Shown here piece by piece: positions 1,027-16,673 of a stretch of DNA of 64,000 nt. The notes under the pieces were generated by a model. It worked only from the letters and a program-made list of their open reading frames with translations. It had not been told where the DNA came from and made no database searches. Both the position numbers and the translations under genes were made by a program. Numbering within the stretch: position 1 is the stretch's first letter; every line of letters starts with the position of its first letter. This DNA is from Flavobacteriaceae bacterium PS02337 (GTDB lineage Bacteria; Bacteroidota; Bacteroidia; Flavobacteriales; Flavobacteriaceae). The stretch covers positions 1-64,000 of the forward strand of contig JASCOE010000009.1 of assembly GCA_029959285.1 (NCBI GenBank). Reading direction: 5' to 3'.

Positions 1027-2379
1027 CTATTTTCTACGATTTAATAGAATTCTTTTTAGTTTTGAGCTTTTATTCATATGATGTACTCTTATGTTTTCCC
1101 ACATTATTAATCTGTTTTCGATTCTAGTTATTGCTCTTATGTCACCATCTTGTGAAATGACAAAACCTATACTTCCAACATTTTCCCAGCAATGAGAAAA
1201 AATTGCTCGATGTCTTGTTCCAAAATGATTTGGTTTTATCGGTTCTAGATTTCGAACATTAAACCTCGCAGTTTTTGAAATATAAACACCTTCTGGCAAG
1301 TTGAAGTTTCTTACTACAGCACCAAAACCATTAACTTTAAGCTTGTCATCTAATATAACTAGACCATCGATACAGCTTAATGAAGCGACAAATCTTATGG
1401 CTCCTTTTAATTCATCAGTACTTTCATTTTTATTGTTGTTAGAAATGGATTCGTCCAAGTATAATTCAACTGGAATATCCTTTTCATTTTCAACATCTAA
1501 ATAATCTTCATAAATTAAATCAGATACTGTACTGTTTTCAATTGAAAAAGCAATTTTATTTTTCAATGCTTTATATAATCTATCATATTCAATTTTGTGT
1601 TTAATGTCTAAATCATTGTAGTTTGACTTACTGATTATGAAAGATCCACCATGGTGATAGTTTTGGATTCTTATTAATATTCTAGAAATCGTTTGAGTCC
1701 AAAGATTATTTACTTGATTATTCCATGTTACTTTTTCAAAATCAGATAAAGCATTTACATTTTTAGCAATATCTTCAATTAGTTTTTGAGAATGTGATTT
1801 TACTATTTGTGAAAAGGAACCGAATTTAAAAACATCAATATATTTACTTATTAATATATTTTGCTTTAATGTAGCCACTAATTCATAGTCAATTATTACA
1901 AGTAATGTACCAATATTGGTGATTGAAGTTTGAAACAAGCCTGGTTGTTCTGGGCCAGATTCTGATTCGTGATGTAAAAAGTTTTGATAGTGGATAGACT
2001 GGTCAATCAATCCCCAAATAAATAGGTTACCATTTTTATCAAAATCAACTGCTAATGATGAACTCCAAGGATCTGCTGCTTTAGAGAGTTTAACAATGTT
2101 TTTTACACTAAATTCAATTTGCTCTTCTAACTTAATTAAACTCCATCTGTCCCTCACAATCCTTTTTGGTGGTTTAGGGTCTGGGTTTTCTGAGTCTATT
2201 AAAGTTATGGTTACTTTTATAAAATCATTTTCTTCTGTTTTTAAACTTGCATAGAAAAGGTTTTCAAAAAGTTCTACAAGTATTTTTTGGCTTAGCTTAT
2301 GGGATTGATTTTTTAAGTTTTTAAATTTATTAAAAACTACAGTAGCTAAATCTGAAGGAGTTGCATTGATTTTTTTCAT
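1027..2379 (-). CDS. DAC-domain (diadenylate cyclase-like) protein with N-terminal sensor region
   Basis: The last ~120 residues of this 450-aa protein match a diadenylate cyclase (DAC/DisA_N) domain. DGL (338-340) stands where the family has DGA, followed by FGTRHRA (386-392), the strongly conserved RHR motif that binds ATP, and FVISQDGDI (406-414). DAC enzymes join two ATP to give c-di-AMP. The first ~300 residues have no motif I recognise; DAC domains with unusual N-terminal sensor domains (the DACNV/DACNG/DACNH types described by comparative genomics) are the nearest idea. It is the tail gene of the defence operon, 3 nt after the metallopeptidase gene. The A-to-L change in DGA might alter activity. 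No membrane segments seen. Confidence 0.7.
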   Translation of the reverse strand: MKKINATPSDLATVVFNKFKNLKNQSHKLSQKILVELFENLFYASLKTEENDFIKVTITLIDSENPDPKPPKRIVRDRWSLIKLEEQIEFSVKNIVKLSKAADPWSSSLAVDFDKNGNLFIWGLIDQSIHYQNFLHHESESGPEQPGLFQTSITNIGTLLVIIDYELVATLKQNILISKYIDVFKFGSFSQIVKSHSQKLIEDIAKNVNALSDFEKVTWNNQVNNLWTQTISRILIRIQNYHHGGSFIISKSNYNDLDIKHKIEYDRLYKALKNKIAFSIENSTVSDLIYEDYLDVENEKDIPVELYLDESISNNNKNESTDELKGAIRFVASLSCIDGLVILDDKLKVNGFGAVVRNFNLPEGVYISKTARFNVRNLEPIKPNHFGTRHRAIFSHCWENVGSIGFVISQDGDIRAITRIENRLIMWENIRVHHMNKSSKLKRILLNRRK

Positions 2380-2382
2380 GAT

Positions 2383-3075
2383 TTAAATTTTCTCTAATTT
2401 TAATTTCCAATGCTTCCAATCTGGAGCTATGTTTTCTAATAGATTATAGAACTTTTTTGAATGGTTTCTTTCGATTAGATGGCATAATTCATGTGTCATA
2501 ACATAGTCAATACAAGCTGATGATGCTTTTATTAATTCTGGATTGATTACTATTTTACCTGAAGAAGTATAGCTGCCCCAGCGTTTTTTCATGCGTTTAA
2601 TTTGCAATTCCGGTTTTTGAATTTTGTACTGAATGAATTTTCTATATGCTTCTTCATACATTTTTTCAAAGATTTTAGAAGCTCTCTTATAATACCACTC
2701 TGTCAATAAATGTTTCACTTCTTCAGCAGTACTTTTGGTCGTAAATACAACTAAGTAACTACCTTCAATTTTTACTTTTTTTTCTTGAGAATTAATGATC
2801 TTTAAAAGATAATTTCTCCCTAAGTATTTATGAGTTTCTCCAATTACATATTCTCTTTTTGGAGTTTCTGGCAGGAATTGTTCAAAGTATTTTTGTTGTG
2901 TTATTATCCATCTTGAACGTTTTGACACTACTTTCTTGATTGTATCAATAGAAGAATCTATAGGTGCTTTTATTTGTACAGAAGTATCAGGGTGTACCTC
3001 AACGGCAATACTTTTCCTTTTCTTTTCAGCTACTGAAAATGCGATTTTTTTTGTACCGTACTGAATGTGATGCAT
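2383..3075 (-). CDS. YgjP-like (DUF45) zinc metallopeptidase
   Basis: A 230-aa protein with the zinc motif HELCHL (HExxH) and a third ligand histidine in the following RNHSKKFY segment near the C-terminus. The preceding MKKRWGSYTSSGKIVINPEL stretch is typical of the YgjP/M48-related family. Such genes are very often coupled to type I restriction HsdR genes, and here only 1 nt separates it from hsdR and 3 nt from the DAC gene, so co-translation is likely. Its substrate is unknown; a role in HsdR turnover or maturation is inference from context. Cytoplasmic, with no signal peptide. Confidence 0.85.
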   Translation of the reverse strand: MHHIQYGTKKIAFSVAEKKRKSIAVEVHPDTSVQIKAPIDSSIDTIKKVVSKRSRWIITQQKYFEQFLPETPKREYVIGETHKYLGRNYLLKIINSQEKKVKIEGSYLVVFTTKSTAEEVKHLLTEWYYKRASKIFEKMYEEAYRKFIQYKIQKPELQIKRMKKRWGSYTSSGKIVINPELIKASSACIDYVMTHELCHLIERNHSKKFYNLLENIAPDWKHWKLKLEKI

Positions 3076-3076
3076 C

Positions 3077-6000
3077 TTAAAAATTGTTTTTTGCTACTTT
3101 TAAACATTTATCTAATATGGCATCTAAATCATCAAATGTGATATCAATACCTAATGATTTACGATGTGCCATTAGATAATCTTCAACCTCGTTTTCCATT
3201 TCTTTGATTACATCAATATTTTTTTTCCAATCTCTAATGACTAGTTTTTCAATAATTTTTGAAATATCAATTCCAATATTGGCCAAAACATCTTTTTGTT
3301 GGATTGCTATTTCTTTTCCAAAACTGCTCTCAAATACTTCACTCAATACACCGAAGAATGCTCTCGCCTCAGGTTTGTTTAACAATGTTTGCGGAATGTC
3401 TTCGAGATATCCTTTTTCAAATTGATCTCGGATATTTAATACTGCTTTTAAATACTCTGCTTCAGAAATTCTGTTTTCTTGAAATGATTTTATAACATCT
3501 TCTAATAACTGAGAAAATTTCTTGTAAAAAGCTTCGTCTTTCTCCATGTTTTCCGTTATTACCTTTTTCATTTTGTGTGCTATGAAATCGGCTTTCGAAG
3601 CTGGAGTTTTACCATATTCTTCAATAGCTTCGTTTACCATTTGCTTGTCGAAAATGTTCAATTCTTTTGTAATTATTATTACGTCATCAGCTTGTACATA
3701 GGTGTCCAATAGCTTTTTAACTCTAGGTTCGTATTCTTTGTATGAAACGATTTCTGCATACCTGTTTTGTAATGAAACACGAAGTTTTACAAACATTTTT
3801 AATTCTTGTTTGTAGAAATCAATTTGTTCTTCTGAAAATTCAATGTAAAATTCATTAGAAGCCAAAGCTGTTTGTAATGTTCTGGCAAATTGGCTCAAAG
3901 CTTCATAAAAATCATCTCTTAGGTCTTTGTAAGCTAAGTGTCTTTCAAGAGCTTCGATGTCTTTTTTGTTGTAGACTTCTTTAAAACAGTCCCAAACATT
4001 TGCATGATGAATGGACACTTTTCTTATTTCATCACTAACATCAACTATTGTATTGGTCAAATCTTCCTCATCAAAATCTTCGAATGCTGCATAAGACGTT
4101 AAGGCTTCATCCAATTTTCCTAAAATACCCACATAATCAATAATATGACCGTGTTCTTTGCCACTAAATAATCTATTTACTCTGGCAATGGCTTGTAATA
4201 AATTATGAGAATGTAATGGCTTTGCTAAGTACAGAATTGTATTTCTAGGGGCATCAAAGCCTGTAAGTAACTTACTTACTACGATTATTAATTCAACTTC
4301 AGTTCCTTCGTCCTGGAACTTACTAATGATATATCTTTCGTATTCTTCCTGTCCATTGTATTTTTCCATTAATGAAGCCCAGTATTTTTTTGCTTCGTTT
4401 GTGGTTTCTTTCCAAACATCTTCATAATCTTGACGGCTGTCTGGTGGTGTGAATACTACAGCTGTGTTGATTTTTAATTCTGGATCTGTTTGCTCCTCAA
4501 AATATTTTTGGTAGCGGATTGCCGTTTCAATTCGAGGTACCGCTAATTGTGCTTTGAAGACTCCACCTTGCCAGTTTTGCGAGTAGTGTCTTGAAATGTC
4601 ATATGCTATTTCGTTAACTACTTGTTCGCTTTCATAGATTCTACTTATACTTGCAAATTTCTTTTTTAAATCTTTTTGAGCTTCTTCATTTAGGTTATTT
4701 GATAAACGTTGGAAGCCTTTGTCGATTTGCTGCTTATTTACACTTAATTGTGCTGAACGCCCTTCATATAGCAATGGTAAAACGGCACCATCTTTTACGG
4801 CTTGGTCAATAGTATATTTATGGATAAAGCCACCAAATTTTCTCGCCGTACTTTTTTCGTTTTTCATTAATGGCGTTCCAGTAAAACCAATGTAACAAGC
4901 ATTTGGCAATACTCGTTTCATGTTGATGTGAGCTGTTCCGTATTGACTACGATGGCTTTCATCCACTAAAACAAATATGTTTTCGGAGTTGTCAATGAAA
5001 GAGGTGTTTTTGGTTGCAGTTTGAAATTTATCGATAATGGTAGTAATGATTTCATTTCCTTTGTCTTGCAATAATTCTATTAAATCACTACCGCTTTTTG
5101 CTTTTTCAACGGATTTACCGCAATTTCTAAAGGTTTTATAGATTTGGTTATCTAAATCAATTCTATCAGTAACTACAATAATTCTAGGTGAAGGAATGCT
5201 TTTATCTAATGCTAATGCTTTTGATATCATTACCATAGTTAACGATTTTCCACTTCCTGTTGTATGCCAAATTACACCACCTTTACGTTTATTTGTTTTA
5301 TCAATTTCTTTTACTCTTTCTATAGTGTTTTGAACGGCAAAATATTGTTGGTAACGAGGTACTTTAATGTTTGGTCCATCATATACTAAGTATTTGTAAA
5401 CAAATTCTAAAATTCTATTAACGCTACAAAGGCTCACTAATGATTGGTCTTGAATCGTAGTTACTCTGTCTTCTTTTTGTGTTCCGTATTTAGTAGTTTT
5501 AAGTGTTTTTTGAGTTTCCTTCTCATTATTTTCTTTCCATACTGCCCAGAATTTTTCTGGAGTACCTACAGCACCATATTTTACTTCATTAGGTTGTACT
5601 GCCAATAATAATTTGGCATAGTGATATAATTTCGGAATTCCTTCTTCGCGTTTTTGATTGCGAATGTGTTGCGAAATTGCTTCGGTTAAGGAAGCGTTTT
5701 TGTCTCTGCGTTTGTTTTCAATAACTATGAAAGGAATGCCATTGATGAAAAGAACAATATCGGGTCTTCTTTTTTCTTTGATCCCTTCAACAACAAATTC
5801 ATCTGCGATGTGGTATGCATTGTTCTCAGGGTTTTCCCAATCAATGAATCTCATCGTATATGCTTTACGGTCGCCCTGAATGGTTTCATTAAAACTTTTT
5901 CCTAAAGTGAGTAAATCATGAATGTTCTCATTGGTTTTTATCAAACTTTCTTCGGGAATGTTTTTTAGGACATTGATTGCCGATTGAATGTTGGAGTTAG

Positions 6001-6211
6001 AAAAAGGATATTCTTTGTCTTTATATTCAAAACTATTGATAGCGCTCAACCGTTCCGCTAAAATATCTTCCAGTATCACATTAGAAAGTAAGCCACCACG
6101 TTGTTTGATGGTTTCTTCGGGAGTTATGTATGACCAACCCAATTTGCGAAGTAAAAGGATCGCTGGTTTTTGAGAATCATTGTGCTCTGAATAATTTAGT
6201 ACTGCACTCAT
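3077..6211 (-). CDS. hsdR: Type I restriction enzyme R subunit (HsdR)
   Basis: This 1044-aa protein is the motor-nuclease subunit of a type I restriction system. The N-terminal PD-(D/E)xK nuclease is visible as RRPDIVLF (D151) and VIENKR (E165, K167). The superfamily 2 helicase follows, with Walker A HTTGSGKS (316-323) and the DExH box VDESH near residue 415, then ARVNRLFSG as motif VI. It cleaves unmodified DNA after ATP-driven translocation, together with HsdM and HsdS. Length and domain order are normal and the frame is intact. It is separated from hsdS by the CBASS and GGDEF genes but lies on the same strand, 40 nt after the small beta-rich gene. Confidence 0.95.
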   Translation of the reverse strand: MSAVLNYSEHNDSQKPAILLLRKLGWSYITPEETIKQRGGLLSNVILEDILAERLSAINSFEYKDKEYPFSNSNIQSAINVLKNIPEESLIKTNENIHDLLTLGKSFNETIQGDRKAYTMRFIDWENPENNAYHIADEFVVEGIKEKRRPDIVLFINGIPFIVIENKRRDKNASLTEAISQHIRNQKREEGIPKLYHYAKLLLAVQPNEVKYGAVGTPEKFWAVWKENNEKETQKTLKTTKYGTQKEDRVTTIQDQSLVSLCSVNRILEFVYKYLVYDGPNIKVPRYQQYFAVQNTIERVKEIDKTNKRKGGVIWHTTGSGKSLTMVMISKALALDKSIPSPRIIVVTDRIDLDNQIYKTFRNCGKSVEKAKSGSDLIELLQDKGNEIITTIIDKFQTATKNTSFIDNSENIFVLVDESHRSQYGTAHINMKRVLPNACYIGFTGTPLMKNEKSTARKFGGFIHKYTIDQAVKDGAVLPLLYEGRSAQLSVNKQQIDKGFQRLSNNLNEEAQKDLKKKFASISRIYESEQVVNEIAYDISRHYSQNWQGGVFKAQLAVPRIETAIRYQKYFEEQTDPELKINTAVVFTPPDSRQDYEDVWKETTNEAKKYWASLMEKYNGQEEYERYIISKFQDEGTEVELIIVVSKLLTGFDAPRNTILYLAKPLHSHNLLQAIARVNRLFSGKEHGHIIDYVGILGKLDEALTSYAAFEDFDEEDLTNTIVDVSDEIRKVSIHHANVWDCFKEVYNKKDIEALERHLAYKDLRDDFYEALSQFARTLQTALASNEFYIEFSEEQIDFYKQELKMFVKLRVSLQNRYAEIVSYKEYEPRVKKLLDTYVQADDVIIITKELNIFDKQMVNEAIEEYGKTPASKADFIAHKMKKVITENMEKDEAFYKKFSQLLEDVIKSFQENRISEAEYLKAVLNIRDQFEKGYLEDIPQTLLNKPEARAFFGVLSEVFESSFGKEIAIQQKDVLANIGIDISKIIEKLVIRDWKKNIDVIKEMENEVEDYLMAHRKSLGIDITFDDLDAILDKCLKVAKNNF

Positions 6212-6251
6212 TTATTATTTATTTTGAGGAGAGTTAAAGTAATTATAGTCT

Positions 6252-6599
6252 TTATGCTTGTCCCAATTTATTAAATATTACCCTTTCTCCACTTCCTAAC
6301 TGAATTGTCATTTGAGTATTGTCTAGTGCCCAGATTTTCAAGCTTTCATATTGAGGCAAATCTTCTGATTTAAATATTTCTTTAAATTCTATTTCAGATA
6401 GTTCATTTTTATGATTTAATATATTGAATTTCCCATGCCATTCGTATATAATTTTATTATCCTCTTTCGGATTGTATATAGTAAACATTGATCTAGCTAT
6501 ATTGTAGCTATCATCAGATTGATGGATATTGAAATCAGTTACTATTTCTCCATTTGTATTTCTCCAAATGCCAAATAATTGTTGAATTTGTATATCCAT
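6252..6599 (-). CDS. Small beta-rich protein coupled to the GGDEF gene
   Basis: A 115-aa protein I do not recognise. It has no signal peptide or membrane segment. Alternating hydrophobic stretches (LFGIWRNTNGEIVTDFNI near the N-terminus, NKIIYEWHGKFNIL, LKIWALDNTQMTIQLGSGER near the C-terminus) predict a small beta-barrel or lipocalin-like fold. Its start codon overlaps the GGDEF stop as TAATG, so the two are probably made together. By analogy with Cap15-type or Panoptes OptE effectors, whose beta-barrel binds cyclic dinucleotides, it could be a nucleotide-binding partner, but here the membrane helices are on the GGDEF protein instead. That is inference only. Confidence 0.75.
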   Translation of the reverse strand: MDIQIQQLFGIWRNTNGEIVTDFNIHQSDDSYNIARSMFTIYNPKEDNKIIYEWHGKFNILNHKNELSEIEFKEIFKSEDLPQYESLKIWALDNTQMTIQLGSGERVIFNKLGQA

Positions 6600-7372
6600 T
6601 AGTAATTACTTTTTGTGTTATTTTTTCCTTTTATTTCTTTTGCAGACATCAATGCTAGACTTGCTCTATTAAGAAATGTATCGATTGTGTCTTCCTCTTT
6701 TTTGAATTCAGTTACACCACAAGAGACTGACAGATTAATACTTGTTTCATCAATTATGAAAGTATTATCAGCAATTGATTGTCTTTTTCTGTTTGCAGCT
6801 GTAACAGCATCTGCTAAACAGGTGTTTTTTGCTATAACAATGTATTCATCACCTTTGAAAAGTCTAAAAGTTTCATCAGTTCCTCTTTTGTCATTATGAA
6901 GTAATTGTCCTAAACTTTTTAGTATTTTGTCAGCTTTTGTATGACCGTATCTTGTATTGTAGTCTTTGAAATCATCAATGTCTATGAAAATAATAGATAA
7001 TGTTTCTATTTTTGAGGTATTTAATAATTCTTCAATAGTTTTATTAAGGTGTTTTTTTAAAGCTTTATGGTTTTTTAATCCAGTAATTTCATCTGTAAAA
7101 TTATCTTTCTCTAGTGTTTTATATTTTTTAAGATAAATTAATCTAATTAATAGAAATGCTATTATTATTAGAATTATACTATAAATTATAATTCCATATA
7201 GATAAACAGTATATTCCATTTTTAAAAATGCTCTTAAGGAGAATTTTTCAGGAATTATCAATGGTATAAGAACTCCAACCAACAGAAAAATCAAAGATTT
7301 TATTGAATCATAAATAGCTTTAGATAAAGCATCTGATTTAAACTTTTGAAGTGAATTACTGAAAGAACCCAT
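6599..7372 (-). CDS. Membrane-anchored GGDEF-domain protein in a CBASS operon
   Basis: This 257-aa protein has two predicted membrane helices (about 25-40 and 55-79) and then a GGDEF domain (about 92-250). DEITGLKNHKAL (94-105) is the usual domain entry. IDIDDFK (130-136), N139 and D148 match the metal and guanine-contacting positions of diguanylate cyclases. The signature is KGDEY (173-177) instead of GGDEF, with one extra residue before it. RGTD (163-166) resembles the RxxD inhibitory site. Catalytic acidic residues are kept, so it may still make a cyclic dinucleotide. It lies 39 nt after the E2-like gene and overlaps the small beta-rich gene by one base. The domain entry argues for a true GGDEF rather than a Cas10-type mCpol domain. 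Confidence 0.8.
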   Translation of the reverse strand: MGSFSNSLQKFKSDALSKAIYDSIKSLIFLLVGVLIPLIIPEKFSLRAFLKMEYTVYLYGIIIYSIILIIIAFLLIRLIYLKKYKTLEKDNFTDEITGLKNHKALKKHLNKTIEELLNTSKIETLSIIFIDIDDFKDYNTRYGHTKADKILKSLGQLLHNDKRGTDETFRLFKGDEYIVIAKNTCLADAVTAANRKRQSIADNTFIIDETSINLSVSCGVTEFKKEEDTIDTFLNRASLALMSAKEIKGKNNTKSNY

Positions 7373-7411
7373 ATTATTTTACTTTATATTGTTTGCAATT
7401 AACGTTATTTA

Positions 7412-7873
7412 TTATTCGATTTCTTTTGTCGATTTATGAGGAACAAATGGATGTTCCCATTTACCTGTAATTAAATAAATTTCATAAAACACAAACCATT
7501 CTATTGTCCAGGGAATGATTGTATTAAACAGATGGTGCTTTTTATAATCCCAAATAATATCCGATGAATGATAAAGGCATAAGCTATTGTCTGATGGGAA
7601 CATGTGTATATCGTCATTATAGCTTATTTGTGGATCAATTATATTTACTTTTGGTGATGATTTACCATTGTAGCTAATTTGAAACTTATATTCAATAGAA
7701 AGTGGAGTTGGTTTACAAAATCCTTCACACAAAAGAAATTCATTCTTAATTGTACATTTTAAAAAGTCGAAATTATTTTCAATTAATTTTTTCTCTCTAA
7801 TTAAAATATACTTATTAAGTAGCTTTTGTTGCCTTGCTTTTGGTTTACTTCGATTAAATCTAGTTCCCGCCAA
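7412..7873 (-). CDS. E2-like conjugating protein of a short type II CBASS
   Basis: A 153-aa protein resembling the bacterial E2-like (Cap2 E2-only) proteins of short type II CBASS. The region DIHMFPSDNSLCLYH (88-102) gives H90 and the likely catalytic C99, followed by the tryptophan-rich helix DIIWDYKKH and TIEWFVFYE typical of this family, ending GKWEHPFVPH. In characterised systems the E2 acts on the C-terminal tail of the CD-NTase to prime signalling. There is no E1 or JAB peptidase gene nearby, which defines the short type. The gene overlaps the CD-NTase gene by 14 nt, so production is coupled. Confidence 0.75.
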   Translation of the reverse strand: MAGTRFNRSKPKARQQKLLNKYILIREKKLIENNFDFLKCTIKNEFLLCEGFCKPTPLSIEYKFQISYNGKSSPKVNIIDPQISYNDDIHMFPSDNSLCLYHSSDIIWDYKKHHLFNTIIPWTIEWFVFYEIYLITGKWEHPFVPHKSTKEIE

Positions 7874-8870
7874 AGTTTTTATGTTCTTTATGTTTTACAC
7901 CTGCATTATCCTCGGTAATATTTCCGCTTTTTTGAGCATAAGCACTACCACTTAATATGCTTTGTTTTAAAGCATTTAATGATTGTTCTTTTGCATCAGT
8001 ATCTTCATCAGCTCCTTCTGGAAATTTATCTCCCAAATGATTTTTCCATAGTTTGCTAGCTTTTAATTGATTTTTTTCATCAATTGCTTTATTTGCATCC
8101 TCAATAAACGACTTTAAATTGTTGATTAATTTGTCTTTTCTTGTTTGCTCATAATCCCCAAACAAATCATCATTTGGTGTTGCAGGAACTATGCACTCAA
8201 AAGAGCTATCTAGTACTTCTTTTATTTTTTCTAAAGTATCTCTTAAAGCAATATCGTCCCTATCATTTTTTTGGATATTATTTGCTGCTAGAATACTCAT
8301 AGCGAGTCCACTGGGCATTTTGTCTCTTTTAAAATCACACCATGCTTTTAAATGTCTAGATATTCTTAAAACTTGAGGTATATTTTTGATTTCATTTATA
8401 TACCACTCAACAAAATCTTTTGGGTCGCTTTCTGAACAATCTTCATTTTTTATAGCTAATAAAGGATGGTCGCTACCATCAGGAAAATAATAAACAGGAA
8501 TGTCAATATGATACTCTGCTTTAAATATTACTCTGATACATTTTTTTCTATGTTCAGGAGGTGTAGTTGTATGACCGTCAACTGCATTTTTAACCCAAGT
8601 TTGTAATGTAGTTCCAGAAACACCTTGTTCTCTTCTAAAATATACCCCGTCATCTAAATCACACTCATTATCTTTTGTCAAAATTATTGTGCCTACTTTG
8701 TATGAGCCTTGAATGTAAAATTCAGGTTTATATTCGGGATAATTTGCCTTAAAGTAATTTCTAATTTTAGTTCTAATTTCTTCTTTAGATAGTTTTAGTT
8801 TATCTTTCTTTGCTTTTGGAATATTTAAATTTATATCAAAATCTAAAAAAAGTTTGTTACAGTTAGCCAT
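7860..8870 (-). CDS. CD-NTase (cGAS/DncV-like nucleotidyltransferase) of CBASS
   Basis: The nucleotide cyclase of the CBASS module, 336 aa from the chosen start. Polymerase-beta-type motifs are QGSYKVGT (GS at 55-56), DLDD (71-74) and a third aspartate at D123 in YHIDIPVYYF. It would make a cyclic di- or trinucleotide upon phage infection and activate the patatin effector. The tail ends in NFGGN; a glycine-ended tail is the part acted on by E2-like partners in type II CBASS. The start at 8870 (MANCNKLFLDF) is preferred because the family begins this way and it follows the patatin stop by 1 nt; an earlier ATG at 8903 would add 11 residues and a 32-nt overlap. Product specificity cannot be read from sequence. 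Confidence 0.9.
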   Translation of the reverse strand: MANCNKLFLDFDINLNIPKAKKDKLKLSKEEIRTKIRNYFKANYPEYKPEFYIQGSYKVGTIILTKDNECDLDDGVYFRREQGVSGTTLQTWVKNAVDGHTTTPPEHRKKCIRVIFKAEYHIDIPVYYFPDGSDHPLLAIKNEDCSESDPKDFVEWYINEIKNIPQVLRISRHLKAWCDFKRDKMPSGLAMSILAANNIQKNDRDDIALRDTLEKIKEVLDSSFECIVPATPNDDLFGDYEQTRKDKLINNLKSFIEDANKAIDEKNQLKASKLWKNHLGDKFPEGADEDTDAKEQSLNALKQSILSGSAYAQKSGNITEDNAGVKHKEHKNFGGN

Positions 8871-8871
8871 G

Positions 8872-9885
8872 TTATTTTGTTTTATAGTTTTTAGGTTCTT
8901 CAAAAAATTCTAGAACTTGTGGTTGAATAGCATAATGGTAACCATCATGATCTCCCATTGCTTTTAATGTTTTTAGAGCACCATCATGAGTAATATCCAT
9001 ATCAATCACCCCAATATGTTCTTTTGATAATTTTGGTGATGGAATTCTAAAGTATGTACCTTTCGGATGAATGTTATCAATAATGTTTTTCATAAAGAAA
9101 TCGCTGAAATACGCTTGACCATCCATTGATGCCTGAAACAATTTATTAGCCCAGTGTCTAAATGATTTGGATGTTTTTTTAGTAGATGCCCAACCGCTTG
9201 GTTGAGGAACACTTGAAACCGATAAAATTTTAAATGTATCAAACTCTTTACCTTCACCAACAAAGAATTGTAATGCTTCTAATAGACCACATAGTGTTGG
9301 GTTGTTAGCCCATAAACCGCCATCAGCATATAAAATATTATCATGCTCGTGAATAGGAAGATAAGTTGGTGCCGCTGCGGTTGCTAATGCCACATCAACC
9401 ATTTTTATGTTTTTATCCATGAAAAATTTACCTTCTTTGTGAGGGAATTTAAAAACACGAGGTTCACCTTTAATAAGATTAAAACTTGGGATACATAATA
9501 AATTATTGGCTTTAGCCATAGTTTTGGTTCCAAAAGTTTCCTCTAAAATTTCCTTTAAGGGTTCGTTTGAAAACTTACCCCAAAGCAATAGTTGTTTTAA
9601 AAATTGCCATTTTCTTTGAAACCATCTGCAAAATTTATAATTAGACACTGGAAATATTTCGTTTCCTCTTTTAAAATATAAATCGGATAATTTTTGAGCC
9701 GAAATACCACTACTTAAACCTAATGCAATTAGACCACCTGTAGAAGTACCGCAAATCATATCAAAATGATCTGTAATTTTTTTTCCTGTTTTCTCCTCTA
9801 TTCTTGCTAATAACGAGGCACTATAAAGTCCTTTTATACCACCACCGTCAATAGATAATATTTTAAATACTTTCTTTTTTCCCAT
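8872..9885 (-). CDS. capV: Patatin-like phospholipase, CapV-type CBASS effector
   Basis: A 337-aa patatin-family lipase. The oxyanion loop DGGGIKG (13-19), nucleophile elbow GTSTGG with S48 and dyad aspartate in ADGG (D188) are all intact. In CBASS, CapV is switched on by the cyclic nucleotide from the neighbouring CD-NTase and degrades the inner membrane, killing the infected cell. The gene directly precedes the CD-NTase and overlaps the hsdS gene by 23 nt, so it is fused into the restriction operon. The gene symbol is based on family and context, not on experiment. Confidence 0.88.
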   Translation of the reverse strand: MGKKKVFKILSIDGGGIKGLYSASLLARIEEKTGKKITDHFDMICGTSTGGLIALGLSSGISAQKLSDLYFKRGNEIFPVSNYKFCRWFQRKWQFLKQLLLWGKFSNEPLKEILEETFGTKTMAKANNLLCIPSFNLIKGEPRVFKFPHKEGKFFMDKNIKMVDVALATAAAPTYLPIHEHDNILYADGGLWANNPTLCGLLEALQFFVGEGKEFDTFKILSVSSVPQPSGWASTKKTSKSFRHWANKLFQASMDGQAYFSDFFMKNIIDNIHPKGTYFRIPSPKLSKEHIGVIDMDITHDGALKTLKAMGDHDGYHYAIQPQVLEFFEEPKNYKTK

Positions 9886-11194
9886 ACTTTTTAATTTTAA
9901 CTCTCAATTTACCAGTTAACAACTGCTGCATTAATCCTTGTTTTTGCTTTTTAAAAAAAAATAATTCGCTTCCTAATCCTTTTATTTCATTGTCTATTTT
10001 AGAAAGAAATGACGCTATTTTTTGTTGCTCTTGTATTGATGGTAATGTAATTTTAAATTTCTCTAAATTTCCTTTCGAAATACCGTATACTTTACTCCCT
10101 GTTGCAATGGTTTTTAAACGTTTTTTTATATCAGGATTTTTAAACAAGTAAGCTCTGTATCCATGAGCTGTTTGGTTATTTTTATCGCGTAGGGCAAAAG
10201 TGTGTAAACCAGCCAATACTTTTCTACCACTCAAGTTATATACTTCTAAAGCTTCACCAACACCTTCATAATCTTCCGATGCATCTGCAATTATCAAATC
10301 ACCTTCTTTTAATAAGTGAATGCTGGGTTTGATGTTTTTGTTTAAAACCGGAATACGACTTTCTATATTGAAATCTAACACTGCATTTTTATATGTCGCA
10401 TGAATGTCACCATAATGAATGTAATAAACACTATCTTCTTCCACGTTATAATTAAGATCGTTCCTGGAAAAAGAACTTGTTCCAATAAATTCAAAGACTT
10501 CATTTATCGGTAAGGAAAGCCATTGGTTATTTTCATAACCTTTTAACCTCACCTCACCAGTCAGCAACTTTTTCATGACTGCTTTTTTGTATTGTTTTTT
10601 ATTGTCAATGAGTTGTTGTTGAAGCTTAATGGCTTTATCCCAAGTAGCTAGTATTTGTGCTATTTTTTGTTGCTCGGGTACAGGGGGTAAAATGATTTTA
10701 AACTTCTCTAAGTTTCCTTTAGAAATACCATATACTTTGCTACCTGTCGCAATTGTTTTTAGTCGTTTTTTTATTTCAGGGTTTTTGAACAAATAAGCTC
10801 TATATCCATGAGCTGTTTTATTATTTTTATCTCGAAGTGCAAAAGTGTGTAAACCTGCTAAAACCTTTTTATTCTCTATATTATAAACTTCCAATGCTTC
10901 ACCCACACCTTCATAATCTTCAGAAGCATCGGCAATAATTAAATCGCCTTCTTTTAAAAAGTTTGTGCTCGGTTTTATGTGTTTTTTAAGTGCCGGAATA
11001 CGAGTTTCAGTATCAAAATCTAATACTGCATTTTTATATGTAGCGTGAATGTCACCATAATGGATATAATAAATACTGTTTTCATCAATTTCATAATGAG
11101 TATCATTTCTGGAAAAAGAACTTGTACCAATAAACTCAAAAACTCCGTTTATAGGAAGGAAAGACCAGTCTTGTGGAATTTTATTTTTAGTCAT
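9863..11194 (-). CDS. hsdS: Type I specificity subunit HsdS with two near-identical target domains
   Basis: A 443-aa S subunit that carries the DNA-recognition domains of the type I complex. Its two halves (about 1-205 and 220-430) are nearly the same protein: both contain VFEFIGTSSFSRND, YYIHYGDIHATYKNAVLDF, LIIADASEDYEGVGEALEVY and TIATGSKVYGISKGNLEKFK. Each half ends in a conserved helix starting EQQKIA. The DNA of the halves differs at many silent positions, so this is not a very recent copy. Two equal target domains predict a symmetric bipartite recognition site. It overlaps the Fic gene by 8 nt and the patatin gene by 23 nt. Confidence 0.93.
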   Translation of the reverse strand: MTKNKIPQDWSFLPINGVFEFIGTSSFSRNDTHYEIDENSIYYIHYGDIHATYKNAVLDFDTETRIPALKKHIKPSTNFLKEGDLIIADASEDYEGVGEALEVYNIENKKVLAGLHTFALRDKNNKTAHGYRAYLFKNPEIKKRLKTIATGSKVYGISKGNLEKFKIILPPVPEQQKIAQILATWDKAIKLQQQLIDNKKQYKKAVMKKLLTGEVRLKGYENNQWLSLPINEVFEFIGTSSFSRNDLNYNVEEDSVYYIHYGDIHATYKNAVLDFNIESRIPVLNKNIKPSIHLLKEGDLIIADASEDYEGVGEALEVYNLSGRKVLAGLHTFALRDKNNQTAHGYRAYLFKNPDIKKRLKTIATGSKVYGISKGNLEKFKITLPSIQEQQKIASFLSKIDNEIKGLGSELFFFKKQKQGLMQQLLTGKLRVKIKKYGKKESI

Positions 11195-12575
11195 TTTTTA
11201 TCGCTTTTATTCTTCCTTTGATGTCGGCTAAAAGTTTTTTAGTCAAAGTATTTACCATTGTTTTTATCTCTTCATTGGATAATGATTCAGAATATAGTTT
11301 TTTACAAAAGGTGTCTTTGTCGGGATCACTACTATTGGTGTCATTTATAATATAATAGTACTGTTGAAAAATAATAAAAACGCTGGTATAACTGCTAAAA
11401 GTGTTGGTGCTATCATGTTTAAAGCCATTGTAAGTAATGCTTAATCGTAAGTCATCTATTTTTTTTGGATCACGCTCCATTTCTAAAATTTCAGAAATGC
11501 CATCTTTTATATATATATCTTCAAAAAATTCATCAAAATATTCAATTCCTTTATTCCAGGAGTGATTTCCTTCTGCAGAGCTTTGGAACTTTTTCTCTAC
11601 AAACATTTCATCGAATTTTTTTGTTTTTTCGATTAGTTGCTCAAACAATTTTCGAAACGAGCTTTGATATAATTCTTTGATAGCTTCATTTGATTTTGCA
11701 ACTACTTTATCATCTTTAGCTTTGAGGTGACGTTTTAAGATTTCTAATTCTTTTTCCACATCGTCTTCCTCTTCAATATCTTTTCCTTCAATGACATCCA
11801 ATACCAATTGTTCTGAACGTTCTATTAAGCCTGAAACGTATTGATAAAAAGCCTCTTTGTCCCCGCCATAGCTCTGAATGTCGCTGATGTAATTGTAATA
11901 CACAGAACGCTCCGATTTTGAAATCCAAAATGGGGTGTAGCCTAAAGCGATCAAAATAAGGTTAGTCAAAATACGTGCTGTTCTACCATTCCCGTCATAG
12001 AACGGGTGTATCTCTAAGTATTCTAAATGAAATTGTAAGGCGACATCAATAGGATGAGGAGCATTTTTATTATTCGCAATTATAGCGTCAATGTCTGCAT
12101 TGGTTTTGTTGAGTAAATAATGCATTTTATCTGGCACCAACTCCCAATCTACAAAAGTGTATTTTTCTCCTTTGTGATTGAAAATTTCATTATTTTCTGG
12201 TTTCCAATTTCCAATCTTTTTCTTTTTTTGTGAATCTTCTTCGTGCATAATTCCTGCATGAATTTCTTTTATTCTTTTTTCGGAAAGCCGCAATTCTGCT
12301 TTCCCAATTTTAAGAATATTAGAAATTACTTCGTCGTGACCTTTCATTTCCAGCACGTCTTTTAGTGGTTTTTGACGTACGTCTAGGTTGCCTACCATAA
12401 CACTTCTTGTTTCTTCAATAGTAAGCGTGTTTCCTTCCATACTATTTGAGTTGAAATTCCACTCTAGACGAAACTTGTTGTTGATTATGTTTAGTTGCTC
12501 TTTGGTTAATTTCCCATTTTGAACAATCTTCTCTTTGATAGAGTCAATTTTGTTTTTAATGTCCGTGTATTTCAT
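11187..12575 (-). CDS. Fic-domain protein within the restriction operon
   Basis: A 462-aa protein with the complete Fic active-site motif HPFYDGNGRTAR (190-201), which transfers AMP or a similar group to target proteins. An N-terminal inhibitory motif of the (S/T)xxxE(G/N) type is visible as SNSMEG (43-48), so it is a class II, self-inhibited Fic. The C-terminal ~220 residues are helical and acidic and not recognised. Fic genes between hsdM and hsdS are common in type I loci; their target is generally unknown. It starts 10 nt after hsdM and overlaps hsdS by 8 nt. Confidence 0.9.
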   Translation of the reverse strand: MKYTDIKNKIDSIKEKIVQNGKLTKEQLNIINNKFRLEWNFNSNSMEGNTLTIEETRSVMVGNLDVRQKPLKDVLEMKGHDEVISNILKIGKAELRLSEKRIKEIHAGIMHEEDSQKKKKIGNWKPENNEIFNHKGEKYTFVDWELVPDKMHYLLNKTNADIDAIIANNKNAPHPIDVALQFHLEYLEIHPFYDGNGRTARILTNLILIALGYTPFWISKSERSVYYNYISDIQSYGGDKEAFYQYVSGLIERSEQLVLDVIEGKDIEEEDDVEKELEILKRHLKAKDDKVVAKSNEAIKELYQSSFRKLFEQLIEKTKKFDEMFVEKKFQSSAEGNHSWNKGIEYFDEFFEDIYIKDGISEILEMERDPKKIDDLRLSITYNGFKHDSTNTFSSYTSVFIIFQQYYYIINDTNSSDPDKDTFCKKLYSESLSNEEIKTMVNTLTKKLLADIKGRIKAIKND

Positions 12576-12585
12576 ATTTATATTT

Positions 12586-14097
12586 TTATATTCCTAATTC
12601 TTCTAGGTAGTGTTTCATCTCTTTTCTCACTTTAGCTAATTCACTTTCAAGCGTATTAATTTCTTCTTTGACTTTTGCTAAATCGATAGGTTCTTCTTCT
12701 TCGAAAGTATCTACATAACGAGGAATATTTAAGTTGAAATCATTTTCTTTAATTTCATTTAAAGTAACCACATTGCTATATTTTTCAATAGTTTCAAAAT
12801 TTTGATAAGTTGCTACAATTTTACGAATATCAATTTCTCTAAGTCGGTTTTGTTTTTTACCATCTTGGTATTCTTTACTGGCATCAATAAACAAAACTTC
12901 TGTAGATTTTTTTGCTTTGTTGAAAATCATGATAGCAGCTGGAATACCAGTCCCAAAAAATAAATTGCTAGGCAAACCGATTACTGTTTCTAGTAAGTTT
13001 TCTTCAATTAATTTTTGACGAATTTTACCTTCTGCAGCACCTCTAAACAGCACACCATGTGGAACGATTACACCAATTCTTCCATCAGGTAGTGTAGTAT
13101 CAATCATATGTAAAATAAAAGCATAGTCTCCTTTGCTTTTTGGTGGCGTACCCCTAAGAAACCTTTTAAAGCGGTCTGTTTCAGCATTTTCGGCACCCCA
13201 TTTGTCGAGGCTAAAAGGAGGATTAGCCACTACTATATTGAATTTCATTAAATGGTCTCCTTCAATTAATTGCGGATTGTTAATCGTATCGCACCATTCA
13301 ATGCGAGCACCATCCATACCGTGTAAAAACATGTTTAACTTACTTAATGCCCATGTATCTCCGTTACTTTCTTGTCCGTACAGAGCAAAGTCCTTAGACC
13401 TTAAACCATCTTTATCTTTTACTTGTTCTCCCACTTTGATTAGTAATGAACCTGAACCACAAGTAGGATCACATATTCTATCTCCAGGTTTAGGATTAAC
13501 TAATCTTGCTAATAATTCGCTTACTTCATCTGGACTATAAAATTCACCTCCTTTTTTACCGGCACCACTGGCAAACTCGCCAATGAGGTACATGTATGAA
13601 TTACCTAAAACATCTTCGACTTTGCTTAACTTTGAAGGTCTGAAATCTAAAACAGGACTTGCGAAATCATCTAACAGGTTTTTCAATCTTCTGTTACGAT
13701 CTTTAGTTTGTCCTAATTTATCGGAATTAAAAGATATGTTTCTGAAAACTCCTTCTAATTTAGCAAGATTTTTATCCTCAATTTTTGCCAGAACTTTATC
13801 TATTATTTCCCCAATATTGTTATCGTTTCTGTTTTCATATAAATAATCAAACGAACAATTTTCAGGCAAAACAAAACGTTCTCTTTGTAGTTTTCTTTGA
13901 ATTAGTTCGTCATCATTACCATATTGAACTTTATATTCTTCATAATGATCCTTCCAAACATCACTCATATACTTTAGAAACATAAAAACCAAAATATAAT
14001 TTTTGTATTCAGAGGAATCGAAAGCACCTCTAAATGTATCACATGCTCCCCAAAGTGCTTTATTTATTTGATCTTGTGTTGGGTTTGTATTAGTCAT
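12586..14097 (-). CDS. hsdM: Type I DNA methyltransferase subunit (HsdM)
   Basis: A 503-aa N6-adenine methyltransferase. The SAM-binding motif DPTCGSGSLLI (210-220) and catalytic motif NPPF (292-295) are intact, with the helical N-terminal HsdM domain in front and a coiled-coil C-terminus that docks HsdS. It methylates the host recognition sites and is also required for restriction. The first codons overlap the upstream half-length HsdS gene by 8 nt, and the Fic gene begins 10 nt after the stop. Confidence 0.96.
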   Translation of the reverse strand: MTNTNPTQDQINKALWGACDTFRGAFDSSEYKNYILVFMFLKYMSDVWKDHYEEYKVQYGNDDELIQRKLQRERFVLPENCSFDYLYENRNDNNIGEIIDKVLAKIEDKNLAKLEGVFRNISFNSDKLGQTKDRNRRLKNLLDDFASPVLDFRPSKLSKVEDVLGNSYMYLIGEFASGAGKKGGEFYSPDEVSELLARLVNPKPGDRICDPTCGSGSLLIKVGEQVKDKDGLRSKDFALYGQESNGDTWALSKLNMFLHGMDGARIEWCDTINNPQLIEGDHLMKFNIVVANPPFSLDKWGAENAETDRFKRFLRGTPPKSKGDYAFILHMIDTTLPDGRIGVIVPHGVLFRGAAEGKIRQKLIEENLLETVIGLPSNLFFGTGIPAAIMIFNKAKKSTEVLFIDASKEYQDGKKQNRLREIDIRKIVATYQNFETIEKYSNVVTLNEIKENDFNLNIPRYVDTFEEEEPIDLAKVKEEINTLESELAKVRKEMKHYLEELGI

Positions 14098-14674
14098 TTT
14101 TAATTAAGTTTAATAGTTGATTTTGGATTAATTCTTTTCTTTTTACTTTAATTTTGTCTAGAATTTCAATTTCCTGGTTTAATAAAATTGCTGTTTTAGC
14201 AATAGCTTTTTGTATGTCTAGAGGAGGCACCTTAATAGGTAACTCCATAATATCTTGCTTGTTTAAATTAGGAACATAAGTACCTGCTTTTTTTTCATTT
14301 AGATAATTTTGAGCTTCTTTCTGATTGATGTACCAAACTAAATATTCTGGAATAATTTTTTTTTCTTCTACCCTAATTACAAAAAATGTTGCAGAAGGAA
14401 CTACTTTAATGTTGATATCTTCAATTGCTATTGCAAAGTTGTTGACGCCTTTTGAAACAAATAAAATATCATTTTTTTGTAAGTAAAATTTATCTTTAAA
14501 AATAAAGTCACTAACTTTATCAATACTATAATAGTCAAAACTTGAATAATTTTCTTTGATATCTTTCATTTGAAGAATACCAACATCACCATTAGGATTG
14601 TGCTCTATTTTTTCCCTGAAGGAATATCCAGAGAATAAAGCATCTGAAAGTATAAGATTTTTCAATAATAACAT
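14090..14674 (-). CDS. Half-length HsdS-like specificity protein, single target domain
   Basis: A 194-aa protein with one type I specificity domain. The core shows GILQMKDIKENYSS, FVIRVEEKKIIPEYLVWYIN and the closing helix PPLDIQKAIAKTAILLNQEI. It is about half of a normal S subunit and its target domain is unlike both halves of the full HsdS at 9863-11194. It is the first gene of the operon and overlaps hsdM by 8 nt. Half-S proteins can work as homodimers or swap with other S subunits, so it may provide a second specificity; it could equally be a remnant. The start codon overlaps a direct repeat that may be an operator. Confidence 0.85.
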   Translation of the reverse strand: MLLLKNLILSDALFSGYSFREKIEHNPNGDVGILQMKDIKENYSSFDYYSIDKVSDFIFKDKFYLQKNDILFVSKGVNNFAIAIEDINIKVVPSATFFVIRVEEKKIIPEYLVWYINQKEAQNYLNEKKAGTYVPNLNKQDIMELPIKVPPLDIQKAIAKTAILLNQEIEILDKIKVKRKELIQNQLLNLIKND

Positions 14675-14916: not shown

Positions 14917-15087
14917 ATGGAGAAAGATATTGACTACGGAAATTCAAAGTTGACCACGGAAAAAGCTTTACAAATGCTTAGGTCTGAGGGACTAGAGGTG
15001 ACTATTGAACAAGCAGAGGAAATTTTGTATTTCTTAAGAATAATTGCTAATATCGCTGTGTTGAAACATTTAAATAAAACAAAATGA
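14917..15087 (+). CDS. 56-aa protein coupled to the recombinase
   Basis: An unannotated-size ORF of 56 codons, starting MEKDIDYGNSKLTTEKAL and ending AVLKHLNKTK, whose stop overlaps the recombinase start as ATGA. The sequence LTTEKALQMLRSEGLEVTIE looks like a helical, possibly helix-turn-helix, unit. The coupling suggests it works with the recombinase, for example as a directionality or accessory factor; that is inference. A dyad (AATTACATTTTT at 14883-14894 with AAAAAGTGTAATT at 14904-14916) lies directly before the ATG and could fold over the ribosome-binding region or bind a regulator. Confidence 0.75.
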   Translation: MEKDIDYGNSKLTTEKALQMLRSEGLEVTIEQAEEILYFLRIIANIAVLKHLNKTK

Positions 15088-16634
15088 GTAAGATAGCAGA
15101 TTTGTATATTCGTGTAAGTACTGACGAGCAAGCAGAAAAAGGATTCTCCCAACGGAATCAGGAGGAAATGCTAAGAAAATATTGCAGCATTAACCAAATA
15201 CAAATACGCAATGTAATTTATGAAGATCATTCAGCAAAGACTTTTAATAGGCCTCAATGGAAAAAATTTCTTGATGATGTAAAAAAAAATAAAAATAAAA
15301 TTAATCTGGTTCTTTTTATGAAGTGGGACAGGTTCAGTCGTAATGCGGGTGATGCTTACCAAATGATCAATGTATTAAGAAAGTTGGGTATAGAGCCGCA
15401 GGCAATAGAACAGCCACTTGATCTTAGTGTTCCGGAAAACAAGATGATGCTTGCGTTTTACCTGGCTGCACCCGAGGTTGAAAACGACCGAAGGGCATTG
15501 AATACCTTTCAGGGGCTTAGAAGGGGTAAGAAGGAGGGAAGGCATATGGGTATGGCTCCTTATGGATACGCTAATAAAATAACTGAGGATGGGAAAAAGT
15601 ATATTGCCATTGTACCAGATAAAGCTGTAAAAGTTATTTGGATTTTTGAGCAGATTGCTAAAAATATTTTTAGTACTGAATCAATTTATCAAATGGCCAA
15701 AGAAAAAGGTTTTGCCATTTCTAAGAATAACTTGTGGCTTATCATAAGAAATCCACTGTATTGTGGAAAGATTGTTGTTCCTAAGTACAGAGATGAGGAG
15801 GAGAGATGGGTCAATGGACAGCATGAGCCAATTATCAGTGAGGGATTGTTTTATCGGGTACAGGATGTTCTTGACAGTAAAGCACGGACATATAGGCCTA
15901 AAATTAAGACTATTGAGAATTTTCCTTTGAGAGGTTTTTTTCTTTGTCCGAATTGCGGTCAGAAGTTAACAGGAAGTAAATGTAAAGGAAGAAATAAATA
16001 TTACTATTATTATCACTGTGATAAAGTTTGTAAATGGAGAGTGAATTCCGAAATAGCTAACAAGGTTTTTAAAGACCATTTAAATAAATTCAAACCTTTA
16101 GAAGAAGTTAAGAAATTATATACCGCAGTTCTGCTTGAAGGATACAGAGAACATACTGGATTAGTCGCTAATGAAAAAAAGAAGTCACTGGAGCAAATTG
16201 CAACTTACGAAAAGAAATTATCGGTTGCCAGAAATCTTTTAGTAAGTGAGAAAATTGATCCTGAGGATTATAATCTTATGAAAATTGAATACAATGCTGT
16301 TATCAGTAATCTGGAAAAAGAGATCGGAAATGTAGAGGACGACAGAACCACTATAGAGTACTTAACGACAACTGGATTGGAAAACCTTTTAAAACTAGGT
16401 GAAGCCTTTGATGGTGGGACCTTAGCTGATTCCAGGGAGATAATTGGTTTAATTTTCCCCGAAAATTTTACATTTCAAGAAAATAAAATCCGCACCGCCC
16501 GAGTCAATGAAATCATCAACTGTATCTATCTGGTAAACAATAGATTACGGGCAAAAAAAAACGGAACAAAAGATGATATTTTTCTTTTGTCCCGAGTAGT
16601 GACCTCGACTGGATTCAAACCAGTAACCTTCTGA
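15084..16634 (+). CDS. Large serine recombinase (site-specific integrase)
   Basis: A 516-aa large serine recombinase. The N-terminal resolvase domain has the catalytic serine in YIRVSTDEQ (S12) and the KWDRFSRNAGDA segment; the Recombinase domain (about 160-270) and a zinc ribbon CPNCG...C...C (about 280-325) follow, then a coiled coil. These enzymes integrate or excise elements through crossover between att sites. The last ~12 residues (STGFKPVTF end) are read from inside the tRNA-Arg gene on the other strand, so the frame is completed by the target site. It is the likely mover of the defence island. Confidence 0.93.
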   Translation: MSKIADLYIRVSTDEQAEKGFSQRNQEEMLRKYCSINQIQIRNVIYEDHSAKTFNRPQWKKFLDDVKKNKNKINLVLFMKWDRFSRNAGDAYQMINVLRKLGIEPQAIEQPLDLSVPENKMMLAFYLAAPEVENDRRALNTFQGLRRGKKEGRHMGMAPYGYANKITEDGKKYIAIVPDKAVKVIWIFEQIAKNIFSTESIYQMAKEKGFAISKNNLWLIIRNPLYCGKIVVPKYRDEEERWVNGQHEPIISEGLFYRVQDVLDSKARTYRPKIKTIENFPLRGFFLCPNCGQKLTGSKCKGRNKYYYYYHCDKVCKWRVNSEIANKVFKDHLNKFKPLEEVKKLYTAVLLEGYREHTGLVANEKKKSLEQIATYEKKLSVARNLLVSEKIDPEDYNLMKIEYNAVISNLEKEIGNVEDDRTTIEYLTTTGLENLLKLGEAFDGGTLADSREIIGLIFPENFTFQENKIRTARVNEIINCIYLVNNRLRAKKNGTKDDIFLLSRVVTSTGFKPVTF

Positions 16635-16673
16635 GCCGTAATCAGATGCGCTATTCAGTTGCGCCACGAGGCC
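16600..16673 (-). tRNA. tRNA-Arg (anticodon ACG)
   Basis: The minus strand folds into a complete 74-nt cloverleaf. The acceptor stem GGCCTCG pairs with CGAGGTC, leaving discriminator A; the D stem is GCGC/GCGC; the anticodon stem TCTGA/TCAGA holds loop TTACGGC with anticodon ACG; the T arm is ACTGG-TTTGAAT-CCAGT. CCA is not encoded. Its 3' half overlaps the end of the serine recombinase frame (16600-16634), pointing to integration at the tRNA 3' end. Confidence 0.95.

Follow-up and report, generated by a model that had tools for sequence, protein, structure and literature searches.

The window analysed here is a stretch of 64,000 nucleotides of contig JASCOE010000009.1 from Flavobacteriaceae bacterium PS02337 (genome of 5.7 Mb, 100% complete). 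It holds an operon of the cyclic-oligonucleotide-based antiphage signaling system (CBASS) that includes a gene for a membrane GGDEF protein, a member of what is best read as a previously undescribed family of CBASS-accessory diguanylate cyclases. The gene is part of a co-directional array on the minus strand (1027-14674), in which some adjacent genes overlap and no gap between neighbors exceeds 40 bases. The features are given below in array order, with the segments and motifs of the GGDEF protein after its gene and the recombinase and tRNA at the end:

14090-14674, minus strand: second specificity-domain open reading frame (ORF) of the array
12586-14097, minus strand: HsdM
11187-12575, minus strand: Fic
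9863-11194, minus strand: HsdS
8872-9885, minus strand: CapV patatin-like phospholipase effector (PADLOC, 1.8e-107; NCBIfam CBASS phospholipase activated by cyclic GMP-AMP [cGAMP], 332 bits, cut-off 200)
7860-8903, minus strand: cGAS/DncV-like nucleotidyltransferase (CD-NTase; PADLOC Cyclase, 2.5e-125; NCBIfam CBASS cGAMP synthase, 212 bits, cut-off 150)
7412-7873, minus strand: CBASS E2-like protein (PADLOC E2, 1.5e-54)
6599-7372, minus strand: membrane GGDEF protein, 257 amino acids (Pfam GGDEF, 4.9e-28)
7118-7321, minus strand: two transmembrane (TM) segments of the GGDEF protein, residues ~18-48 and ~52-85 (hydropathy)
6875-6886, minus strand: RGTD, primary inhibitory site (I-site) for cyclic di-GMP (c-di-GMP), residues 163-166
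6842-6856, minus strand: KGDEY hairpin motif, residues 173-177
6252-6599, minus strand: 115-amino-acid protein (ORF; predicted beta strands)
3077-6211, minus strand: HsdR, type I restriction (PADLOC REase_I, 5.6e-193)
2383-3075, minus strand: YgjP-like metallopeptidase (Pfam, 5.9e-54)
1027-2379, minus strand: DACNV-domain protein with a GTRHRA motif and a weakly DAC-like C terminus (Pfam DACNV, 4.3e-15)
15084-16634, plus strand: serine recombinase
16599-16673: tRNA-Arg, overlapped by the 3' end of the serine recombinase gene

CD-NTase, CapV, and E2 are all present, i.e., the CBASS of the window has the type II-short arrangement, and neither E1 nor JAB was among the PADLOC matches listed for 12 ORFs of the array. 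The PADLOC profile of the CD-NTase begins at residue 12, and the true start may be further in. This CBASS block, with HsdS on one side and HsdR on the other, lies within a type I restriction locus that also has a Fic gene. The region looks mobile because the serine recombinase gene overlaps tRNA-Arg, and a mobile element probably has its integrase end at 15084-16673; apart from the tRNA itself, the window showed no copy of the tRNA end that could mark an attachment site. Scanning for promoters and terminators gave values within 1 standard deviation of those of shuffled sequences. The same genome has a second CapV and CD-NTase locus (contig C2, 104318-105313; L126), with no GGDEF gene in 16.5 kb.

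The GGDEF gene begins 39 bases downstream of E2 and has base 6599 in common with the next ORF, that of the 115-amino-acid protein (strand sequence TAATG). Its product consists of an N-terminal cytosolic helix, two TM helices, and the GGDEF domain (residues 92-248; 98.4 bits against a Pfam cut-off of 23.8), in which D131, N139, and D148 are present. An AlphaFold2 model built with six sequences reached a mean predicted local distance difference test score (pLDDT) of 78, with blocks from residue 101 on at 82 to 94, and shows helices at 15-39 and 56-92, the long second one entering the GGDEF fold. The best solved match to the GGDEF model was PleD with c-di-GMP (Foldseek, 4.1e-16). A first-pass annotation made from the letters alone had described a two-helix membrane GGDEF protein with KGDEY, the catalytic acids, the guanine-contact residues, and RGTD, encoded inside a CBASS operon directly after E2. 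The Pfam match, the two hydrophobic segments, the modeled helices, and the PADLOC matches of E2, CD-NTase, and CapV all agree with this description, which did not include the enclosing type I restriction locus or an atypical GGDEF hairpin.

Six full-length homologues, 38 to 48% identical to the window protein, were recovered. Five are in the window's genus (G682, G788, G841, G976, and G985, from 399 genomes sampled) and the sixth is on pRUNSL02, a conjugative plasmid of Runella slithyformis. No further full-length member was found in 299 genomes of the taxonomic family or 345 of the class (the latter at an E value of 1e-30), nor among the best matches listed for 395 genomes of the phylum. These samples overlap and were drawn evenly from larger groups, and no more than six first-look candidates were scored for each genome of the genus. 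A scan of genome contigs returned 11 GGDEF loci, at 27 to 32% identity only. In a tree with 61 other GGDEF domains (loci fetched by similarity, minus partial matches and duplicates; 65 before duplicate removal), the seven members form one clade with a support of 0.999 and a long stem. Residues at the positions aligned to PleD D327, K332, N335, D344, R359, D362, E371, R390, and K442 are identical in all seven, including the R and D of the I-site, and E370 and R446 are replaced conservatively throughout, by D and K, respectively; together, these eleven PleD positions cover catalysis, guanine contact, and the I-site. Compared with RxGG[DE]EF, the stretch leading to GDE[FY] in the hairpin is lengthened, by one residue in the window protein and by two in the other six, and its first Gly is lost. 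The GG[DE][DE] form, the standard hairpin criterion, was seen in 0/7 family members versus 60/61 generic domains. Five invariant residues of the seven-member alignment fall among the first 25 positions and none in 26-85; therefore, the short cytosolic helix before the membrane is constrained and the TM sequence not. By hydropathy, only the second TM segment exceeds the threshold in G841.

Two other identities were considered and ruled out. GGDEF proteins of the Hypr type, which synthesize cGAMP, are described as carrying Ser or Thr where PleD has D344 (PMC9140294), and the Asp at this position (D148) is kept in 7/7. The Pfam GGDEF match and the GDE[FY] motif, nearly absent from Kp and VnOptS (PMC12657218), speak against mCpol, which was absent from the four Pfam matches of the protein (E value up to 1), the presence of an mCpol model in the library not having been checked. 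Judged from its sequences, this is a family of GGDEF proteins with a diguanylate cyclase fold and conserved active-site and I-site positions, whose product should be c-di-GMP. Scans of viral contigs gave no sign of a phage-borne origin of the gene. No relative was confirmed with queries P0001, P0002, or a two-sequence alignment; the seven-sequence alignment matched 29 loci, 26 of them solely from query residue 86 on and the other three from residues 36, 63, or 70 at 24 to 28% identity. With the Runella query there were 72 phage records, and the ten listed span 62 to 65% of it. When the N-terminal part was scanned against PHROGs and Pfam, only weak matches were obtained.

CBASS genes lie at most 2 kb from the GGDEF gene in six of the seven members, and CapV is near in five. 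The gap to the nearest one is 39 bp in the window. In G788, the GGDEF gene stands 17 bases before CapV (PADLOC, 1.5e-105), which is followed by a CD-NTase of another clade (3.2e-89), 17 to 19% identical to those of the other loci. In G841, it comes 22 bases after the CD-NTase (3.2e-102), preceded in turn by a CapV truncated by the contig end (1.9e-35); as in the window, HsdR and YgjP follow the GGDEF gene here (L059). The G985 gene is 810 bases upstream of CapV (3.8e-113), with no ORF of more than 44 amino acids between them, and this CapV is accompanied by a CD-NTase (2.4e-123) and Cap2 (E1-E2, 9.5e-205). On the Runella plasmid the distance is ca. 1.7 kb, behind the gene of an XRE regulator and an unassigned one, to a divergent operon of CapV (8.7e-100), CD-NTase (2.3e-117), E2 (8.5e-47), and a second CD-NTase (2.9e-90). 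The sixth case, G976, is 1.3 kb from an opposite-strand, decayed CBASS with a 1TM-type effector (8.4e-71) and not CapV. E2 or Cap2 was found at three loci (window, Runella, and G985). Because the CBASS partners differ (E2 only, Cap2, CapV and cyclase alone, or the other CD-NTase clade of G788), the GGDEF protein does not appear to be bound to one cyclase. The first-pass annotation had likened a second, unrelated cyclic-dinucleotide synthase within CBASS to the Panoptes system, and had counted a location mostly away from defense genes against this view; the opposite was found for the GGDEF gene, and such a synthase does recur with CBASS, as Panoptes does, in 6/7 members.

In this genus, CapV matches above the curated cut-off were found in 10 of 245 genomes (11 loci, two of which are those of the window and G788), and patatin matches below it, outside this count, in 13 more. 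Under independence, the chance that three of the five genus members other than the window's lie within 3 kb of CapV would be ca. 1e-11, and that three of five such genomes carry CapV at all, 5e-4; the base rate comes from the 245-genome sample and the members from the 399-genome sample, and both figures ignore shared ancestry and the clustering of defense genes. At two CapV loci of the genus, there is an LRAT-like gene directly upstream of CapV (L124, 8362-8808, minus strand; L127, 3478-3900, plus strand; Pfam LRAT, 3.4e-9 and 1.4e-9), perhaps a lipid-related accessory.

The window GGDEF gene is the sole GGDEF match in its own genome (E value of 0.001), in which EAL and PilZ gave no match at the same threshold, HD-GYP and other receptors not being covered by this search. 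The same searches found GGDEF in 8, EAL in 6, and PilZ in 5 of 14 control genomes. With a two-sequence profile (E value of 1e-6), 392 of the 399 genus genomes had no match; six of the remaining seven carry the family and one (G951) has a GGDEF-part match only. A second GGDEF-part match is found in G841, on a short contig. The genomes of this genus thus appear mostly to lack a GGDEF enzyme, and recurrence beside CBASS against such a background suggests that the protein serves defense. By gene neighborhood, the linkage of the family to CBASS is well supported, and it is probable that the two are functionally tied.

As to how, the reading we favor, tentatively, is that of a CBASS-accessory diguanylate cyclase whose c-di-GMP acts as a decoy shielding cGAMP from phage sponges; we infer that the enzyme is active, what it makes, how it is regulated, and its use as a decoy. 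The membrane enzyme would make c-di-GMP, which would in turn inhibit it at the invariant I-site, leaving a modest standing pool. When a sponge such as Tad2 arrives, free c-di-GMP would drop, the I-site would empty, and the released enzyme would refill the sponge with c-di-GMP, so that the cGAMP of the CD-NTase would escape it and reach CapV. For a cell with no other c-di-GMP, a product-inhibited GGDEF enzyme would cost little and be silent at rest. This decoy role would make sense of the invariant I-site, needs no partner gene, and fits different CBASS types. According to a review, Tad2 binds c-di-GMP (cGG) strongly, and pockets saturated with it can be compromised in the capture of 3'3'-cGAMP (PMC12043709).

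Several points weigh against this reading. Catalytic activity is not assured because the hairpin is lengthened and without its first Gly. Acb4 is reported not to bind c-di-GMP (PMC11722364), and the decoy would fail there; cGG is also missing from the Acb2 ligand list of the review (PMC12043709). The need for a second source of c-di-GMP is weakened because DncV-type CD-NTases can make some (PMC6401482 and PMC12802263). The CBASS next to the G976 gene (L060, 11576-12795, minus strand) has an effector that spans its whole profile, and its CD-NTase is split into an N- and a C-terminal piece, covering positions 1-103 and 319-442 of the 443 of the profile. Around the G682 gene, no CBASS match was found in the 11 neighboring ORFs scanned (an XRE-type gene hit helix-turn-helix-type models), and its genome has no CapV above the curated cut-off, CD-NTases not having been searched for there. 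Finally, no family member was found at eight other CapV loci of the genus (G808 left out; three of the eight are stretches of 5 to 10 kb), and the gene is therefore optional.

Another view is that the gene is ordinary cargo of defense islands, a normal diguanylate cyclase or a degenerate receptor with no tie to CBASS. Defense genes cluster, some of the loci look mobile (serine recombinase and tRNA-Arg in the window, conjugative plasmid in Runella), and the hairpin is atypical. However, the gaps to CBASS genes are operon-like although the CBASS types differ, active site and I-site are conserved, and EAL and PilZ gave no match in the host; all this argues otherwise, and we hold this view to be rather unlikely. 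Alternatively, c-di-GMP could bind CapV or another CBASS protein directly, either as a brake on leaky cGAMP or as a second activator upon membrane disturbance. CapV is found at 5/7 loci, and between the window and G788 it is 74 to 75% identical and the GGDEF protein 48%, yet the CD-NTases are only 19% identical. There is a precedent in Clover, where CloB, the regulatory partner enzyme, makes an inhibitory nucleotide (PMC12265719); both would have a regulatory enzyme making a non-activating nucleotide beside a defense effector, although the enzyme and nucleotide of Clover are unrelated to GGDEF and c-di-GMP. Direct modulation is nevertheless unlikely: G682 has the GGDEF gene without CapV, the G976 effector is of the 1TM type, and no statement that CapV binds c-di-GMP was found in the accessible portions of the literature.

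The next alternative is built on Panoptes (OptS, an mCpol, with OptE, a 2TM-beta protein), in which a membrane effector is held in check by a constitutively made nucleotide and is triggered by phage sponges (PMC12657218 and PMC12657230). Its mCpol genes are described as adjoining CBASS that have ubiquitin-like genes and an effector of the patatin or S-2TMbeta kind, and some are coupled or fused to 2TM domains (PMC12657218). The loci studied here similarly have a second synthase beside CBASS, a membrane component, and a patatin effector and ubiquitin-like genes nearby (CapV in 5/7, the latter in 3/7). Here, however, the synthase is a guanine-type GGDEF protein with an I-site, itself membrane bound and not an mCpol, and no conserved OptE-like partner was found at the family loci. 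A single chain might then do both jobs, guarding the neighboring cGAMP-based CBASS: the GGDEF domain would make c-di-GMP, the I-site would sense it, and the TM helices would be the effector, kept harmless by bound c-di-GMP until stripping by a sponge leads to oligomerization and breach of the inner membrane. The failure to see a conserved partner gene at the seven loci, the I-site invariant in 7/7, the conserved cytosolic helix before the TM segments, the 2TM-coupled mCpol genes, and the G682 copy standing without a neighboring CBASS would all fit. Nevertheless, the TM segments lack sequence conservation, the synthase does not belong to the mCpol family, and two TM helices are also an ordinary anchor of diguanylate cyclases. 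A one-protein guard is quite unlikely. The authors of Panoptes speculate that there are more Panoptes-like systems, perhaps with other synthase folds (PMC12657218).

Weaker still is the split version of Panoptes proposed by the first-pass annotation, in which the free 115-amino-acid protein would be a barrel serving as sensor or effector. Of the beta-rich partner described there, the TAATG junction is real, and beta-rich stands for the eight strands of a small barrel in a low-confidence model (pLDDT of 62.7, single sequence). The protein has no membrane segment (best 19-residue hydropathy of 0.12), another difference from OptE. As a conserved partner of GGDEF it had to be rejected: no relative was found in the six homologue loci or the eight control CapV loci (phmmer, E value up to 10), and in the 299 genomes of the taxonomic family it obtained two weak matches besides itself. 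The pair is therefore not supported as a unit, and neither is a two-gene "split OptE," which would be very improbable. No solved structure matched the low-confidence model at an E value of <0.03 (its neighbors are calycin-like), and the 50 fold matches listed include no chain by the name of Cap15 or OptE, which excludes nothing. The sequence had one match in PDB (E value of 0.09), and a viral fold search with the model gave nothing below an E value of 0.05.

Returning to the accessory diguanylate cyclase that we favor, its relation to other known systems can be specified. It shares with PleD and membrane diguanylate cyclases the fold, the catalytic residues, the guanine-contact N and D, and the I-site, but differs from canonical ones in forming a separate clade with the altered hairpin, in its linkage to CBASS, and in a host genome (the window's) with no EAL or PilZ match. 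Like the ancillary genes Cap2, Cap3, and E2, it would be an optional accessory in or beside the operon; unlike them, it would make a nucleotide rather than conjugate the CD-NTase, and it occurs with or without ubiquitin-like genes. Another case of c-di-GMP in a CBASS setting is STING-CBASS, described from Flavobacteriaceae and Capnocytophaga, where the CD-NTase makes c-di-GMP and STING reads it (PMC8748872), whereas here the GGDEF protein and not the CD-NTase would make it. STING was not among the PADLOC matches listed for 11 window ORFs, host genomes not having been searched for it. Among the papers listed by full-text searches of the open-license literature, we found none with a title or beginning of the abstract describing a GGDEF gene as a CBASS accessory.

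At the far end of the array, the DACNV-domain protein has a GTRHRA and an IDG stretch, which are similar to the motifs of DAC. Pfam DAC matched the whole protein with an E value of 0.15, and the C-terminal pieces of the window and G788 proteins with 0.08 and 0.05. With the DAC profile, nothing was found in the window's genome up to an E value of 10, the DACNV gene included (12/14 controls had a match). Of the six genus genomes with a family member, two have a DACNV gene, in both cases close to the GGDEF-CBASS locus and with a GGDEF-CapV pair; the second is in G788 (L058, 12431-13795, plus strand) and is 80% identical to that of the window. The protein had no PDB or plasmid match, and no mention of it was found in the open-license literature. 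It is possible that it is a divergent diadenylate cyclase, a third cyclic-dinucleotide synthase, its membership in the system being uncertain. If active, makers of cGAMP, c-di-GMP, and cyclic di-AMP would be found side by side at these two loci.

c-di-GMP is a known signal of lifestyle. If a GGDEF family is indeed devoted to CBASS, this would give a defense role to a very common kind of cyclic-dinucleotide synthase, and would explain why a lone GGDEF gene is kept in a genome otherwise devoid of signs of c-di-GMP signaling. It also makes testable the question of whether bacteria use decoy dinucleotides to saturate, or to watch, the sponges of phages.
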